From Candidatus Pseudothioglobus aerophilus (GTDB lineage Bacteria; Pseudomonadota; Gammaproteobacteria; PS1; Pseudothioglobaceae), in contig JACNFO010000020.1 of NCBI GenBank assembly GCA_014384565.1, positions 1 to 60,372 of the forward strand: a stretch of DNA of 60,372 nucleotides, given 5' to 3'. The position numbers were made by a program, and so were the translations under genes. The notes beneath the pieces are model-generated. The model was not told the origin of the DNA. It did not search any database and saw only the letters and a list, made by a program, of their open reading frames with translations. Positions 3-11,088 of the stretch are shown piece by piece; position 1 is the stretch's first letter; each line of letters begins with the position of its first letter.

Positions 3-176
3 AGATTCCACGACCTTCGTCATTCTTGTGCGTCTTACTTGGCTCAATCTGGGGCTTCTCTCTTGGAGATAGCAGATGTCTTAGGGCATAAACAAATCAG
101 TGTGACTAAGCGTTATGCTCATCTATGTATTGAGCATAAGTCGAGTCTTATTAATCGAGTGATGGGTAATATTTAA
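3..176 (+). CDS. Tyrosine recombinase/integrase, C-terminal part only
   Basis: Only the last 57 residues are in the window; the gene continues to the left. The visible part has the catalytic end of a phage-type integrase: an H-D-L-R-H motif near the cut edge, a G-H-K motif about 30 residues later, and R-Y-A-H-L carrying the probable nucleophilic tyrosine. The family cuts and rejoins DNA at att sites during integration and excision of mobile elements. The spacing of H-x-x-R, G-H and Y is normal, so the catalytic end looks intact. It lies at the edge of a region with tRNA-His fragments, which supports a mobile island, but whether this enzyme acted there cannot be told. Whether the N-terminal part is intact is unknown. 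Confidence 0.85.
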   Translation, partial: RFHDLRHSCASYLAQSGASLLEIADVLGHKQISVTKRYAHLCIEHKSSLINRVMGNI

Positions 177-2288: not shown

Positions 2289-3587
2289 CTACCAACCCCT
2301 CAATCTAGGGAGCTCATCCATTAGGCTTTTAAGGATTTTAGAATCACTCTGTTTAACAATAAAAGAATCGTAGACAGTAAGGACTGGTATTTTCAATTTG
2401 GTCAACCTTCTTACAATTTCAAATACTCTATCTGACTCCATACACGCAACCAAGTCACCCATTCTTTTACCCCTTAGATAATATGACCTAACAGATTTAT
2501 GTTTGTTCAAATAAAGGTTTAGCAATTCAGAAGGCTTTAGTTTAAATTTAAAGGCTTTGTATTCTTGAGATTCTTTAATTTCTTTCTTTGACCTAGTATC
2601 TTTATCGAAATCATTAATATAAGGCAAATAATGTTTTTCAAGAGCAGCTACAGCGGATTGAATTGAACCTGTGGATAACATAATAGTTGCTGCTTTCTTG
2701 ACAATATGTCTTGGGATGCAATAGGAGTCAACCTCAATATGATAAGGGTCACCTTCAGAATACCGCTCACCCGTAACTGTTATGTACAATACATTGACAG
2801 CACTGGCTTGGAGGTCTAGCTCAACTGTTTCTTCACCATCAATAGTAATGAGTTTTCTCTGAGAAGAACTGAGGTTGCACCAAGGTCCATACATTCGCCC
2901 ACCGAACTTAAGTATGACGCCACCAAATTCATTTTTATCGTGCTCAATAAACTTTCTTTGGAGTCTGAGGTTATCATAGTAATCAATCAATTCGAGTGTA
3001 CCTGTTTTCTTATTCTTCTTGCATAGCCCTATAAGGGCATCTTCAGCCAAGAAATCATTATATTTAGTTAGTTCAGCTCTCAGCCAATTTGAATACTTAT
3101 TGTCTTTGTAGTTAATTAACTTCTTTTTATTGTTCCTCAATAGAATAAGTTCAGGAGTCTCTTGTTGCCAATAATTTCCATACCAATTATTACTCTTAAA
3201 GAATTTTTTTAATTGATTAGTGGGAGCGATAGTTGTCGTTATGCTCTCACCTGTTTCTAGATTCTTTTTGCCTATAACCTGTTCAATATAACCCTTATCG
3301 ACTAAGGCATCTAAAACTGTGTTTAATGCCTTATAGCTAACCTTATGGAAGTTATACCTTTTAGTTCCAAGAGAGGTTCTTGCACGCGGAGTGATAAGTC
3401 TATTTTTCCCACAATAAACTAAGTTAAATAGAAGTAAGTTAAGCGACTTAAACTGCTCTATTCTTTTTAAGCCAATAGTTTTTCCTAGCTCTTTAGATGA
3501 GTTCAGAATATGAGGCTCGTGACTGTTAATAAATAGGTCGAGACTTTGAGCCTTGTGTCTGGTTATTTTTTCCTTCTTATCGAACAA
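2289..3587 (-). CDS. Putative family A polymerase-like (palm) protein of a mobile element
   Basis: This 432-residue protein has no closely recognised family, but three spaced motifs recall a divergent polymerase A palm. A motif A-like E-L-D-L-Q-A-S begins near residue 256, after G-G-R-M-Y-G-P-W and an I-T-I-D-G strand. A motif B-like R-H-I-V-K-K-A helix is near 300. A motif C-like V-Y-D-S-F is near 405. The N-terminal 130 residues look like a winged-helix domain with basic patches. Proteins of this general shape are carried by phages, plasmids and islands. The gene stands alone between the wzz unit and the tRNA-His remnant. The second acidic residue of motif C is Ser, as in H-D-S-F variants. 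Function is inferred from motifs only. Confidence 0.45.
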   Translation of the reverse strand: MFDKKEKITRHKAQSLDLFINSHEPHILNSSKELGKTIGLKRIEQFKSLNLLLFNLVYCGKNRLITPRARTSLGTKRYNFHKVSYKALNTVLDALVDKGYIEQVIGKKNLETGESITTTIAPTNQLKKFFKSNNWYGNYWQQETPELILLRNNKKKLINYKDNKYSNWLRAELTKYNDFLAEDALIGLCKKNKKTGTLELIDYYDNLRLQRKFIEHDKNEFGGVILKFGGRMYGPWCNLSSSQRKLITIDGEETVELDLQASAVNVLYITVTGERYSEGDPYHIEVDSYCIPRHIVKKAATIMLSTGSIQSAVAALEKHYLPYINDFDKDTRSKKEIKESQEYKAFKFKLKPSELLNLYLNKHKSVRSYYLRGKRMGDLVACMESDRVFEIVRRLTKLKIPVLTVYDSFIVKQSDSKILKSLMDELPRLRGW

Positions 3588-3854
3588 TTAAGTAATAATA
3601 TTTAGCCAATAAGTTATTATAACATATTCACTAATATATCCTACTCTTATAGTTTTATTTTTGTATAAAAATCAATATCTTACATAGAATATATTTAAGT
3701 ATGAAATATGCCATTATTATGCCTCTGAGAGCCTCAAATTCGCCACCCTAGAGTACTTAAATTACCTAGAAGGCATTACCCTTATTTAGTACCATTAGTA
3801 ACTCAAATAAAGTCTTAATATAACAAATAGTCACACACATCAAGTGAAAATTCT

Positions 3855-3980
3855 AAATTTCACATCAACCTCAGTTTCGCCGATTAACTAGTCACTCAAA
3901 AGGGGTGTCCTACCCCCTTCTCTATAGCCATTTTGTTGGTATAAAAAAAGTGCCTTTTTGTGTGCCCTTGAGTATATTTT
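3855..3980. repeat. Island repeat block, copy 1
   Basis: About 125 bases align at roughly four in five positions with 9295-9422. Shared stretches include tctaaatttcacatc, ctagtca-tcaaaagg, ccccttctctatag and tgttggta followed by an A run and tgcctttttg. A hairpin (AAGGGG at about 3898-3904 with CCCCTT at about 3914-3919) is kept in the other copy with changed bases. The left part resembles the short scars at 8061, 9891, 6991 and 7684. Confidence 0.75.
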
Positions 3981-4098: not shown

Positions 4099-4119
4099 GT
4101 AGCGTAACGAAGTGAAGCT

Positions 4120-4175
4120 AGAGCCCCGGATTGTGATTCCGGTTGTCGCGGGTTCGAGCCCCGTTTCTCGCCCCA
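4120..4175 (+). pseudogene. tRNA-His 3' fragment (GTG anticodon), probable att site
   Basis: The segment matches a bacterial tRNA-His from the 3' side of the D stem to the CCA end. It has a five-pair anticodon stem (CCGGA/TCCGG) around loop TTGTGAT with anticodon GTG, a T arm with GTTCGAG, and TTCTCGC plus C-CCA with the extra C expected for a tRNA-His discriminator. The matching 5' acceptor strand and D stem are absent upstream, so it should not fold into a complete tRNA. Tyrosine recombinases often use tRNA 3' halves as att sites, and the same sequence recurs at 10049. The intact gene must be elsewhere. Confidence 0.75.
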
Positions 4176-6990: not shown

Positions 6991-7020
6991 ATTCACACAT
7001 CAAACGAAATTTGGACTTTT
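6991..7020. repeat. Short island scar at the 3' end of the DUF2306 gene
   Basis: attcacacatcaaacgaaat matches the left part of the scar at 8061 (cctcacacatcaaaagaaac) and of copy 1 at 3835. It ends a few bases before the stop of the minus-strand gene at 7028. The tRNA-like core is not present here. Confidence 0.4.
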
Positions 7021-7027
7021 AGATTGT

Positions 7028-7642
7028 CTATTTCATAACCTTCCAGTTCCAATAAATAATAACAGGAGTTATTAGCAAAGTAGGTAATACCCAAGGCAAC
7101 CATTGTGGCTCCATATTAACATTAACGACCAGAACGGCTGTAACTACAGCTATAGTGCCTCCCATCATATTGCTTAAATGTCTCGCAATACGTTTCTTGC
7201 CTGTGGCTTCTTGTCGTTTGTAAGCTTTATAATCTGTATAACCAAGTACTATGGCAAGAAATCCGAAGACAGTGAGAGTAATATATTGGGAGTTGTTCTC
7301 AATAGAATAGAATACGGCTAATACCCACATACCTAAACCAGCAGCAATCATCAATCCTACTGCTATCCAATCGACTATTGAGGCTATGCCTTTTCTATTT
7401 TGAGCGAAACGTCTTCCCGCAAAAGCTAGATAAAAAGAAAAGAAGGCAATTAAAAAAAGAAATACATTGCTAGTAATAATTGACATAGGCAATGCCGTAA
7501 GAAAAATACCAGCCATCCCCCAAAAGTAAGTCCTTCCAGCGGTGATATGGATCTTCTTTCCTTTCTCAGAACAGATTGCGAAAGCTGACGCTAATAGTGC
7601 TAATGTTCCTGCCAGAATGTGTATTGGTAATAAATATTCCAT
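7028..7642 (-). CDS. DUF2306-like multi-pass membrane protein
   Basis: The 204-residue protein has about seven hydrophobic helices. Its start, H-I-L-A-G-T-L-A-L, followed by a basic K-G-K-K-I-H-I-T-A-G-R segment and an aromatic helix, resembles the predicted membrane family DUF2306. No function is established for the family. It is one of four consecutive minus-strand genes (7028-9685), each separated from the next by a short spacer with a related repeat, rather than forming a tightly packed operon. A clear ribosome site is not seen. Family assignment is by pattern only. Confidence 0.6.
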   Translation of the reverse strand: MEYLLPIHILAGTLALLASAFAICSEKGKKIHITAGRTYFWGMAGIFLTALPMSIITSNVFLFLIAFFSFYLAFAGRRFAQNRKGIASIVDWIAVGLMIAAGLGMWVLAVFYSIENNSQYITLTVFGFLAIVLGYTDYKAYKRQEATGKKRIARHLSNMMGGTIAVVTAVLVVNVNMEPQWLPWVLPTLLITPVIIYWNWKVMK

Positions 7643-7683
7643 ATTGATATTCTGTTGATAATTGCCAAAGTTTATAGAAACTC

Positions 7684-7732
7684 ACCCTCACACGTCAAAC
7701 TAAAGTTGGACTGAGTAGTTTGTACTTTAGTT
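7684..7732. repeat. Island scar with 9-bp inverted repeat at the end of the 7731 gene
   Basis: The sequence contains cctcacacgtcaaac, related to the other scars, and then a perfect inverted repeat AACTAAAGT (7698-7706) and ACTTTAGTT (7724-7732) with a 17-base loop. The right arm overlaps the stop codon of the minus-strand gene. It may act as a transcription stop for that gene or be a structured recombination site; no T run follows. Confidence 0.45.
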
Positions 7733-8012
7733 AGTTGCTATGGTTTAATATTACAGAGCCAACTTTAGTATCTACAGCAACAATCCCTTGAATAGCGTCC
7801 ATTACTTTATTTTTTGCAGCAGTTGCTCTTTCCATTGCTTCGTTATTCTCATATAAAGTTACAGATATGTTGACGTTGCCTTCAGATTTAACTGCTATTA
7901 ATTGCTCTGCTTCTGGAAAGTCACTTGGTGCATTTGGAACGTAGGCTGCAGCAGCAATATCTGCCGCTTCATTTGATTCAAAGGTTACTGTTGTAATTCT
8001 TGCTACTGACAT
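7731..8012 (-). CDS. Small soluble protein, possibly dimeric alpha/beta-barrel type
   Basis: The 93-residue protein begins with a beta strand (A-R-I-T-T-V-T-F-E-S), continues with a helix, two strands around the middle (E-Q-L-I-A-V-K-S and N-I-S-V-T-L-Y-E) and a long helix rich in Ala, Lys and Met. This order fits a ferredoxin-like or ABM-type dimeric alpha/beta barrel such as small monooxygenase-like proteins. No cofactor or catalytic residues can be assigned. It is cytosolic by the absence of a signal peptide. It sits alone between two scar-like repeats on the minus strand. Confidence 0.55.
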   Translation of the reverse strand: MSVARITTVTFESNEAADIAAAAYVPNAPSDFPEAEQLIAVKSEGNVNISVTLYENNEAMERATAAKNKVMDAIQGIVAVDTKVGSVILNHSN

Positions 8013-8060
8013 TACTACTCCTAGTATTGTTTTTAAAGAAAATTAATTATAGTGTAACTG

Positions 8061-8113
8061 CCTCACACATCAAAAGAAACTTCTAAATTTCAAATCTAAC
8101 ACCGTTTCTCGCC
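8061..8113. repeat. Island scar ending in the tRNA-His 3' core
   Basis: The sequence cctcacacatcaaaagaaac then ttctaaatttcaaatctaac is followed by CCGTTTCTCGCCC, thirteen bases identical to the 3' end of the tRNA-His fragments. It lies eight bases from the stop of the minus-strand methyltransferase gene. The left part matches copy 1 of the repeat block. This is the clearest link between the scars and the tRNA-His site. Confidence 0.65.
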
Positions 8114-8120
8114 CTGCCTT

Positions 8121-9209
8121 TCAAGAGGCTTTGAAAATATAAATTTTTCCATCAATCCAGTTATTTCCCTCTTTCCTCAATCTCACATTATGGGAATCAA
8201 CTAATCTAAAGCCATTAGAAGCAACATCTAAAATATAGCTATCTGAGTGAGCATAGCGCGAACTTTTTAAAAGAGAATAACCTTCATCTTCTTGAGTTTC
8301 AATTGAAAATATAAACAAAGAATTTTTATTACAACACTTCTTTACTGCATTAAAAAAATTCGTTGGCTCGCCAATATATATAAATACATCTAGAGCAACA
8401 AATAGGTCATATTTTTCCTCTAATAATCCTAGCTGTTCAACAATATCACCAACTATCAAATTATCATAAATATCTAACTTCCTCGCTTTGTCTATCATAT
8501 TTGAAGAGAGGTCAATTCCTGTTAAATTATCACTAATTTCCCTCAAATCAGGGCCCGCTAGTCCAGTCCCACATCCCAAATCAACTACTTTTTTAAATGT
8601 AGACTTCGCATTATTTAACTTATAAATAATTTCTTTAATAATAAAGGGAAGCTTGTATTGAAGTTTTTCTACTAATGAATCATTAAATTTTTGAGCATAA
8701 TCATCAAATAAATTTTTTACATATTCTTTTGGAGGCTCTTTACTTGTATTTCCGGTAAGCGAATTGATCATATGTTGAGGTATAGCATAGTTCGGCTTCA
8801 ATGCAAGTGCTTTCTCATAATTCTGAATGGACATATCAACCTTTCCGAGAGCTGCATAGCAACCGCCAATCATATTAAATAGAAGCCCATCTTTAGGGCT
8901 ATTCTTTATTAATATTTCTAGTAAGTCTAATGCATCTAGAATTTGACCTTTGGAAAAAAAATAAATAACATTAAGAATTTTGTTAGTGTGGTTAACAGCA
9001 AACTCTGGATTAATATCTACTACTTTTTTATAACTTCTTACTGCCGTATCTAACTGACCAAGCTTGTGATTTGATTGACCTAGATTATAATGAGCTTCAA
9101 CATAGTTGGGTTTTATTAAAATAGCTTTCTCATAGAGGCTAATTGCCTTATCAAATTGACCTAAACTAAAATAACTATTACCCCTTTTATTGAAAAATAT
9201 ATGCTTCAT
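8121..9209 (-). CDS. TPR-repeat SAM-dependent methyltransferase (COG4976-like)
   Basis: The N-terminal half is made of tetratricopeptide repeats (about residues 1-70 and 95-145; e.g. Y-V-E-A-H-Y-N-L-G and Y-E-K-A-L-A-L-K-P). The C-terminal half is a class I methyltransferase with motif I V-V-D-L-G-C-G-T-G near residue 210, G-I-D-L-S as the acidic SAM ribose site, and D-L-F-V-A-L-D-V-F-I-Y downstream. The substrate is unknown; proteins of this kind occur near surface or island genes. The first TPR starts almost at the initiator Met, and an in-frame stop lies 18 bases upstream, so the N-terminus may have been trimmed. It is on the minus strand between scars at 8061 and 9295. Confidence 0.8.
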   Translation of the reverse strand: MKHIFFNKRGNSYFSLGQFDKAISLYEKAILIKPNYVEAHYNLGQSNHKLGQLDTAVRSYKKVVDINPEFAVNHTNKILNVIYFFSKGQILDALDLLEILIKNSPKDGLLFNMIGGCYAALGKVDMSIQNYEKALALKPNYAIPQHMINSLTGNTSKEPPKEYVKNLFDDYAQKFNDSLVEKLQYKLPFIIKEIIYKLNNAKSTFKKVVDLGCGTGLAGPDLREISDNLTGIDLSSNMIDKARKLDIYDNLIVGDIVEQLGLLEEKYDLFVALDVFIYIGEPTNFFNAVKKCCNKNSLFIFSIETQEDEGYSLLKSSRYAHSDSYILDVASNGFRLVDSHNVRLRKEGNNWIDGKIYIFKAS

Positions 9210-9294
9210 TTTTATGATTTTAGATTAAGAAAAATATTACTAATTAAAAGTTTTTATTGAAACACTATTCTAATCTAACAATAATAAAAAATAC

Positions 9295-9422
9295 GAATTT
9301 CACATCTAACTTGGTTTTCTCGATAATCTAGTCATTCAAAAGGGATGCCATATTCCCCTTCTCTATAGTCATATTGTTGGTACAAAAAAACCTGCCTTTT
9401 TGCGTGCGCTTGAGAGTATTTT
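9295..9422. repeat. Island repeat block, copy 2
   Basis: This is the second copy of the block at 3855-3980, with the same order of conserved segments and a conserved hairpin whose arm bases differ between copies (AAGGGA with TCCCCTT here). Its right end coincides with the stop of the XRE gene. ATCTAAC occurs twice on its left side (about 9272 and 9304). Confidence 0.75.
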
Positions 9423-9685
9423 TAACGAAAAAAAGAATTTGGTTTAAATATAGCCTCCATCTCAGTTAGTGAAATACTTAAAGAGTCACATAATCGCTCT
9501 ATATCTGAGAAAGCTATCGGTCCAGAGCCAGATTCAACTTCATTAATAAATGAAGTTTTGCACTTCATTTTTTTTGCAAGAGCCTCTTTAGTCACTCCTA
9601 ATTTTTTTCTTTTTTTAATAAATAGAGCTCTTAGTGCCTGATGAGCATCATTATGAAATAAATCTTTTTGAGGGTGAAATAGCAT
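9422..9685 (-). CDS. XRE-family helix-turn-helix regulator
   Basis: The 87-residue protein is essentially one Cro/C1-type HTH domain (about residues 20-75): L-R-A-L-F-I-K-K-R-K-K-L-G, then T-K-E-A-L-A-K-K-M, a turn, and S-F-I-N-E-V-E-S-G as recognition region. Such small proteins act as repressors of mobile elements or as antitoxins. No toxin gene adjoins it, so it may be a solo regulator or the remnant of a pair. An inverted repeat (9713-9731) about 28 bases before the start could be its own operator. It is the last of the minus-strand single genes before the right tRNA-His fragment. Confidence 0.8.
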   Translation of the reverse strand: MLFHPQKDLFHNDAHQALRALFIKKRKKLGVTKEALAKKMKCKTSFINEVESGSGPIAFSDIERLCDSLSISLTEMEAIFKPNSFFR

Positions 9686-9712
9686 TTGATCTAAACCTTA
9701 TAAATTAAATAA

Positions 9713-9731
9713 ATAGTTTATTATGAACTAT
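9713..9731. promoter_or_regulatory. Inverted repeat, possible XRE operator
   Basis: ATAGTT and AACTAT are perfect arms around a seven-base spacer, centred about 37 bases before the XRE start. Position and size suit an autoregulatory operator, but the region is AT-rich and such repeats arise by chance. Confidence 0.3.
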
Positions 9732-9890
9732 ATTAAAATAATTATTTTACTAATTTAATTAAACAATAAATCTACCTCAGTTGCCCCAAATAATTAGTTA
9801 CACAATCACTTCTGATATGCGAGTGATGGAATAATATCAATTCTATAGGAATATTTGGAATCTCCCCCCCCTAAGGTCTTTAAATTGGTG

Positions 9891-9924
9891 CAATTCATAT
9901 CTAATCCAGTTTCTCCGATTAACC
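9891..9924. repeat. Island scar with GTTTCTC core
   Basis: caattcatatctaatcca followed by GTTTCTCCGATTAACC resembles copy 1 of the block (cacatcaacctcaGTTTCGCCGATTAAC). It is a shorter version of the same junction sequence, about 125 bases left of the right tRNA-His fragment. Confidence 0.5.
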
Positions 9925-10048
9925 AATTTAAAAACATTATAATTAACCTTGGATTGAGTAACCCTGGTGTAACTCAAATTGAAAAGATAACAAGAGTCGC
10001 CCCCGTCCAGCTTTAACTGGATGCAAGCAACGTAGTTGTGGATGGATA

Positions 10049-10091
10049 GTGATTCCGGTTGTCGCGGGCTCGAACCCCGTTTCTCGCCCCA
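10049..10091 (+). pseudogene. tRNA-His 3' fragment, right copy (att site)
   Basis: Identity with the left fragment starts exactly at the GTG anticodon and runs through the T arm to CCA, with two changes in the T arm (GCTCGAA for GTTCGAG). The match continues about 25 bases past the CCA (to 10116), with a few differences. The anticodon 5' stem and everything upstream are unrelated to tRNA. A junction at the anticodon loop is typical of tyrosine recombinase crossover in tRNA genes. Together with 4134-4201 it forms a direct repeat around about 5.9 kb. Confidence 0.75.
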
Positions 10092-10128
10092 CTTCCTATA
10101 AGGGTTTCAGTCTAATATTTAATAAATA

Positions 10129-11088
10129 ATGAATCTCATTAAATTGATAAAAATACTACTTAATGACCTCTGGATAATTCAATTTTTTAAATTGCAAAGC
10201 TTTCAAACTAAAGCGATAATTTTTAATATCTTATCAATAGTATTTTTTTCAATAATGGTTATTTTTATCAGAAAAGCATCAGAAAATTTACATATTCTGG
10301 AAGTTGTTTTTTTTCGAAACCTGTTAGCTTTTATTGTAATGCTGCCATTATTAACATCTACTGGCCTAGCTGCAATAAAAATGAATAATACTAAGTTGTT
10401 TCTTATGAGAGGTTTTTTTGGTGCTATTGGAATGCTCGCTGGATTTACCTGCTTAACGCTAATACCGCTTGCTCAAGCCACAGCAATTAGCTTCTCAAAA
10501 CCAATATTTATAACAATTGGCGCGGCTATTTTTTTAGGTGAAATCATTAAGGCTCGAAGAATTGCTGCAATTATTATTGGCATTATTGGCATGCTCGTAA
10601 TTGTTCAGCCCGGTGTCAATAGTCTTTCATTTGGAATAATGCTTGCAATTATTGCGGCATTAGCTCACTCAGTTAATGCATTAATTGTAAAAAAACTTAC
10701 TCTTACAGACAGCCCTCAAGCAATTGTTACGTGGATGGTAATAATTCTTATTCCAATTACTTTTATTCCAGCCGTTGCGGTTTGGCAGTGGCCAAGCTTG
10801 GAAACCTGGCTTTACTTGTGGGGAATTGCAATTGTAGGCACGCTCGCGCATTTTTCATGGACTAAATCCTACACAATGGCCGAAATTACCAGCCTGGAGT
10901 CAATTGAATTTATAAAACTGCCAATTATGGCTCTTTTTGGGTGGATGATTTTTTCAGAAATTCCTGGCACCTGGACTTGGATTGGTGGCTCTATAATATT
11001 CCTATCAACAATATACATAAGCCGTCGAGAGGCAAAAGCTAGTAACTCCCTTAAACTTAATCATGAAGCTCAGGAACCGAAATTTTAA
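10129..11088 (+). CDS. EamA/DMT-superfamily transporter (right of the island)
   Basis: A ten-helix transporter of 319 residues with two EamA repeats; landmarks are F-F-S-I-M-V-I-F-I-R-K, V-F-F-R-N and the helix end M-L-V-I-V-Q-P. It differs in sequence from the EamA protein at 4391 but has the same architecture and also follows a tRNA-His 3' fragment directly. The given ATG lies 38 bases after the CCA and has no clear ribosome site; the first 30 residues are poorly conserved in type, so translation may start a little later (for example before the T-K-A-I-I-F segment). Substrate is unknown. Confidence 0.8.
   Translation: MNLIKLIKILLNDLWIIQFFKLQSFQTKAIIFNILSIVFFSIMVIFIRKASENLHILEVVFFRNLLAFIVMLPLLTSTGLAAIKMNNTKLFLMRGFFGAIGMLAGFTCLTLIPLAQATAISFSKPIFITIGAAIFLGEIIKARRIAAIIIGIIGMLVIVQPGVNSLSFGIMLAIIAALAHSVNALIVKKLTLTDSPQAIVTWMVIILIPITFIPAVAVWQWPSLETWLYLWGIAIVGTLAHFSWTKSYTMAEITSLESIEFIKLPIMALFGWMIFSEIPGTWTWIGGSIIFLSTIYISRREAKASNSLKLNHEAQEPKF

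Follow-up and report, generated by a model that had tools for sequence, protein, structure and literature searches.

A decayed tRNA-His island in Candidatus Pseudothioglobus aerophilus and a possible genus-wide system of gene cassette arrays

The textbook example of a system that stores and shuffles single genes is the integron. A contig of Candidatus Pseudothioglobus aerophilus carries four minus-strand genes (7028-7642, 7731-8012, 8121-9209 and 9422-9685), each with a repeat adjoining its 3' end, which raises the question of whether this is a cassette-like array and, if so, of what kind. The window, meaning the whole stretch of 60,372 nucleotides that was analysed, makes up contig C34 in a draft genome of 1.47 Mb. 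With a probability of roughly 55%, we read the region of these genes as belonging to a decayed tRNA-His island and as containing two cassettes of an array system that extends across the genus. The finding is the wider system to which the window, a decayed example, points.

The repeats at the 3' ends of the four genes lie at 6993, 7688, 8063 and about 9293. The initial annotation had taken them for copies of one scar; its genes and their 3' repeats were confirmed, and the single scar proved to be two families, a cassette site and an island-end motif. The features are as follows.

3 to 125, plus strand: tyrosine recombinase, C-terminal fragment at the contig end
2289 to 3587, minus strand: 432-aa protein of PHROG 4756 (function unknown), with relatives in or beside other tRNA islands
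3832 to 3852, plus strand: degenerate left half of the cassette site, joined to the motif at 3853
3853 to 3907, plus strand: island-end motif
4119 to 4175, plus strand: 3' copy of tRNA-His, island attachment remnant
6993 to 7018, plus strand: cassette site, core exact (pattern match)
7019 to 7687, minus strand: cassette 1, with gene 7028-7642 (204 aa) against the site direction
7688 to 7713, plus strand: cassette site with 4 mismatches
7714 to 8062, minus strand: cassette 2, with gene 7731-8012 (93 aa) against the site direction
8063 to 8082, plus strand: left half of the cassette site, joined to an island-end motif
8083 to 8129, plus strand: island-end motif, degenerate copy
8121 to 9209, minus strand: TPR plus methyltransferase gene, flanked by two island-end motifs
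9293 to 9347, plus strand: island-end motif without cassette site
9422 to 9685, minus strand: small helix-turn-helix regulator gene (HTH_3)
about 9893 to 9933, plus strand: island-end motif, degenerate, without cassette site, recognised by eye, about 110 bases before a tRNA-His copy
10041 to 10091, plus strand: 3' copy of tRNA-His without an intact tRNA, island attachment remnant

Because the copies at 9293 and about 9893 are motif without site, only genes 7028 and 7731 lie in site-bounded units, and one boundary of the second unit is a half-site. Neither the 204-aa nor the 93-aa protein had a match in Pfam or PHROG. At another locus (L196) a gene end similar to that of the 8121-9209 gene comes after an island-end motif.

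The core of the cassette site, TCACACATCAAACGAAATTTGGACTT, is 26 bases long and usually preceded by CCCTCCC; the site as a whole measures 26-34 bases. At up to 4 mismatches the window contains two matches to the core, and 100 Markov sequences of equal size contained none. By pattern search, the method behind all genome-wide site counts, the site was found at up to 3 mismatches in 27 of 29 genomes of the window's genus (reversed pattern as control: 0) and in both genomes of one sister genus, and was absent from the family's nine other genera, which makes it present in 2 of 11. The further scar copies that the initial annotation proposed to look for therefore recur across the genome and the genus. 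An exact 25-mer scan of a genome collection gave 52 stretches, from records labelled as Thioglobus, SUP05, the PS1 clade or unclassified gammaproteobacteria and from one Rhodospirillales-named MAG; as to phage carriage, viral contigs gave no exact 25-mer match to the site. The Rhodospirillales-named MAG, UWMA-0295 (L086, L099, L101), has exact sites and a unit 95% identical to that of a gammaproteobacterial MAG, and is probably a mislabelled or mixed bin. The cultured strain Ca. Thioglobus singularis PS1 also carries the site, and since its genome is complete (1,714,148 bp; PMC4616169) the site is no artefact of draft assembly.

The 26-base core is conserved across species far better than the surrounding sequence, which suggests, from sequence conservation, that it is bound by a protein. 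The site shows no clear inverted repeat at its core such as tyrosine recombinases usually use. Some sites take a longer form, of about 110 bases, and 37 of these were extracted. A second site type occurs at L086 5359, L093 3303, L104 6326 and L112 5575, in which the flanks are unchanged (CACATC...TTTGG) and the 8-base middle is AGAGAGGA-like in place of AAACGAAA. An Rfam search of the window and the array loci returned tRNA only, and a consensus fold of all sites gave nothing, the alignment being gap-rich. As the copies are few, clustered and co-oriented, we infer that the site is not a DNA-uptake sequence, and this candidate was rejected. Among open-licence papers on Thioglobus, SUP05, integrons, tycheposons and flanking repeats, none describes the repeat.

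The architecture of the arrays was assessed on 100 distinct units, each running from one site to the next, both in the same orientation and no more than 4 kb from each other, in loci fetched because they contain sites, with simple ORF calling. The median unit is 1150 bases (1.15 kb) long; exactly one ORF of at least 60 aa was called in 67 units and two in 21. Successive sites within 4 kb were co-oriented in 103 pairs and not in 1. Of 97 units, 76 have their main ORF on the same strand as the site and 21 have it on the other, and the main ORFs of neighbouring units share a strand in 36 cases and differ in 19. Gene strand is therefore much looser than site strand (p 1e-6 for main ORF against site, 2e-9 for neighbouring main ORFs), which makes site direction a property of the array and not of the gene; a plain promoter would not explain it. 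Several array loci occur per genome, with up to eight sites in an array and no tRNA copies between them. The cargo includes an aldo-keto reductase, a Rieske oxygenase, a Lyase_1/FumaraseC_C enzyme, a phosphodiesterase and a methyltransferase. Long secreted proteins at L010 104-2104 and L034 7695-16221 have the site, promoter, signal peptide and N-terminal stretch in common and then diverge, as if a single 5' module served different proteins.

Related units recur in different species beside different neighbours, and in the clearest pairs the homology stops in or beside the site. Units 95-97% identical between species stand in differing flanking sequence, and the identity breaks off at the site; the aldo-keto reductase unit, for example, is 96% identical from site to site between the window's genome and another species, and its flanks differ. 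Cassette 1 of the window is 84% identical, site to site, to L032 13833-14529 of another species, where the gene is likewise directed against the site; such reverse-gene units, too, move as units. The window's genome and seven others share a locus linked to tRNA(CAT), at which the cassettes differ between species. Its first site lies 290-320 bases past the tRNA, except in two cases, where the distances are 494 and 878. A same-strand tRNA end within 1.5 kb upstream was found for 12 of the 89 site clusters, as compared with 2% of positions drawn at random from those loci; tRNA linkage of site clusters is enriched, not general. Within a single population, neither insertion nor excision was seen. 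The content between scars thus varies between genomes and species, as the initial annotation had proposed to check, and its cassette-like array is borne out, by the relatives far more strongly than by the window.

In the unit common to L086 and L104 (95% identity) the left site halves differ, CATCAGAGAGGG against CATCAAACGAAA, and the two are common from TTTGG on, which places the exchange inside the core. Cassettes would enter and leave by recombination between two sites, with the exchange point, clear in this one case, between CACACATCA and TTTGG; a cassette beginning TTTGGAC would be joined to the preceding half-site. A -35-like hexamer, TTGGAC, stands in the right half of the site. At 17 +/- 1 bases beyond it, 75% of same-strand units have a TATAAT-like hexamer (40% at control offsets), as do 62% of the 21 opposite-strand units (35% at control offsets), so the two strand groups hardly differ. 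Once joined, a cassette probably supplies or completes a predicted promoter of its own. Some arrays adjoin tRNA genes or lie in tRNA islands, and some seem to end at a joint of half-site and island-end motif. Most likely the exchange is carried out by a trans-acting enzyme. In its full form, the proposal is of integron-independent cassette capture, in which a dedicated trans-acting recombinase would use a promoter-bearing site of 26-34 bases, with the tRNA-island end motif as acceptor, to shuffle accessory genes in ocean bacteria of a widespread group; this we put forward tentatively, at less than even odds.

The island-end motif, approximately CTAAATTTCACATCTACCCCAGTTTCCCCGATTAACTAGTCATTCAAAAGGGGTG, occurs in 10 of the 29 genomes, typically with a 3' copy of tRNA-His about 200-270 bases further on, or else close to tRNA-Pro or tRNA-Lys. 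Relatives have fuller islands, in which a tyrosine recombinase lies directly beside tRNA-His, -Lys, -Arg or -Pro and, in several cases, the tRNA end is present a second time. Copies of tRNA 3' ends serve as attachment repeats at L118, L125, L127 and L030/L120 and in the window at 4119-4175 and 10041-10091. The recombinase beside a tRNA is thus found in relatives, and the window holds only the recombinase fragment at 3-125; the intact tRNA-His gene of its genome is on contig C52. Some tRNA islands have cassette sites inside them or at their far border. At five places (window 3832 and 8063, L009, L193 and L196) the left half of the cassette site joins the motif directly, and we infer that these joints are array ends. 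Site and end motif may have a pattern in common, TCACA(CA)TC-N8-TTT.

The supposed tRNA-His core of the scars, GTTTCTCG, is a variant of this end motif (CAGTTTCCCCGATTAACTAG), which elsewhere stands beside tRNA-Pro and tRNA-Lys copies; it is independent of tRNA isotype and merely resembles tRNA-His, and the tRNA-core reading was rejected. The genuine tRNA-His 3' copies are those at 4119-4175 and 10041-10091, on either side of the region. The serial integration of small elements, for which that core had been cited, stands in so far as the region lies in a tRNA-His island with several decayed ends in tandem.

Some further observations concern the islands. Tyrosine recombinases of about 335-350 aa, many beginning MATIQK, lie directly beside different tRNA genes in different species (L118 9381-10394, L120 7098-8099, L121 7422-8432, L122 7583-8593, L126 6748-7797, L127 6676-7719), and in the islands of this family the tRNA target changes and a common end motif is kept. 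Islands of another kind carry a P4-like integrase and are found at tRNA-Arg or behind a tyrS-like gene (L175, L177, L178, L185); their cassette site lies 2.4-4.1 kb from the integrase gene and points back to it, and a site sometimes forms the end of an island with such an integrase. Proteins of PHROG 4756 lie in or beside tRNA islands (window 2289-3587, L127 2088-3332, L030 7832-9127); judged by eye they have motifs like those of family A DNA polymerases, and the protein may be a replication protein of the islands. The window at 9893-11088 and contig C28 of G000 (L009) at 1-1210 have the same order of end motif, decayed tRNA-His copy and EamA transporter gene; the common block is a duplication, followed in C28 by a cassette site.

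Tyrosine recombinases and IntI were looked for in the genomes of the genus, and no recombinase lies consistently beside the arrays. The tRNA-island recombinase family and the P4-like integrases were both rejected as the cassette enzyme, being island integrases that are absent from several site-carrying genomes. Recombinases of XerC/XerD-like length occur throughout the genus, and in four genomes with sites (G010, G013, G018, G024) the only two tyrosine recombinases are of this length. The genus has its own dif, ATTTCGTATAATTTATATTATGTTAAAT, with one clear match per genome. An Xer/dif site was dropped, since the cassette site by eye matches only the XerC arm, and that loosely (9/11), and the second site type has no match. 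IntI (TIGR02249) exceeded the cut-off in none of the 29 genomes. The drafts among them lack some sequence, although 11 genomes reach a completeness of at least 90%; the hits below threshold coincide with XerC/XerD-like and island recombinases.

With no enzyme found among the tyrosine recombinases and IntI, homologous recombination is a serious rival. The site would then be a dispersed promoter or regulator-binding repeat, and units would be shuffled by homologous or short-homology recombination without a dedicated enzyme. The -35-like hexamer with its spaced -10-like partner (75% against 40%) fits this, as do the extra homology offered by the roughly 110-base form and the reuse of the site together with N-terminal gene modules. 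The 21 of 97 main genes directed against sites that are themselves co-oriented 103:1 do not, nor do reverse-gene units that move as units or a 26-base core kept between species far better than its surroundings; we regard this explanation as possible, though a minority one.

The repeats might instead mark old joints where small tRNA-targeting islands inserted one after another, and so be island remnants with no cassette system behind them. The tandem of several end motifs and two tRNA-His 3' copies in the window speaks for this, and so do the sites in and at the far border of islands. The cassette site, however, is neither a tRNA end nor the end motif, no tRNA copies separate the sites in arrays of as many as eight, and the compared unit pairs suggest unit boundaries without tRNA or island-end sequence, so that this account is improbable. 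A true integron array, or CALIN, with unusual sites would explain the co-oriented sites and the mostly single genes, and the initial annotation had seen a hint of it in GTTRRRY. Against it stand IntI below cut-off in all 29 genomes, the lack of any of the 37 extended sites with both RYYYAAC and GTTRRRY boxes, and the folding of 30 extended sites, which as a test for attC-like hairpins was no better than dinucleotide shuffles (mean z -0.17 top, 0.05 bottom). With IntI, box pair and folding all failing, integron/CALIN was rejected and is very improbable.

If the cassette-array reading is true, Thioglobus/SUP05 would have come to cassette storage by a different route, one that uses neither IntI nor attC-like sites, and the site would be a sequence tag for a mobile gene pool of streamlined ocean bacteria. 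As cultured PS1 carries sites, the idea can be tested.

Among known systems, dif/Xer modules resemble the present one in their short site (about 28-34 bases) and in the XerC/XerD-like-length recombinases found throughout the genus; they differ in that the genus has a dif of its own, which the cassette site matches loosely in one half-arm. The tycheposons and tRNA islands of marine bacteria are matched by the relatives with a tyrosine recombinase beside a tRNA, a second tRNA-end copy and cargo between. Islands of Methylophilaceae have a tRNA-Met border, xerD and cargo, and others are marked by tRNA-Lys-end repeats (PMC10872708); in the parts of such reports consulted, no small units bounded by a separate, non-tRNA repeat are described inside islands. 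With integron arrays, CALIN included, the system shares head-to-tail units, co-oriented sites (103:1), mostly one gene each and content varying between species, as seen in the 100 units with their differing neighbours. Unlike them, it has no IntI, no GTTRRRY/RYYYAAC pair and no excess single-strand folding; its genomes carry several array loci each, and its site contains a promoter-like element. It works as the cassette array of an integron does without, on these tests, being one.
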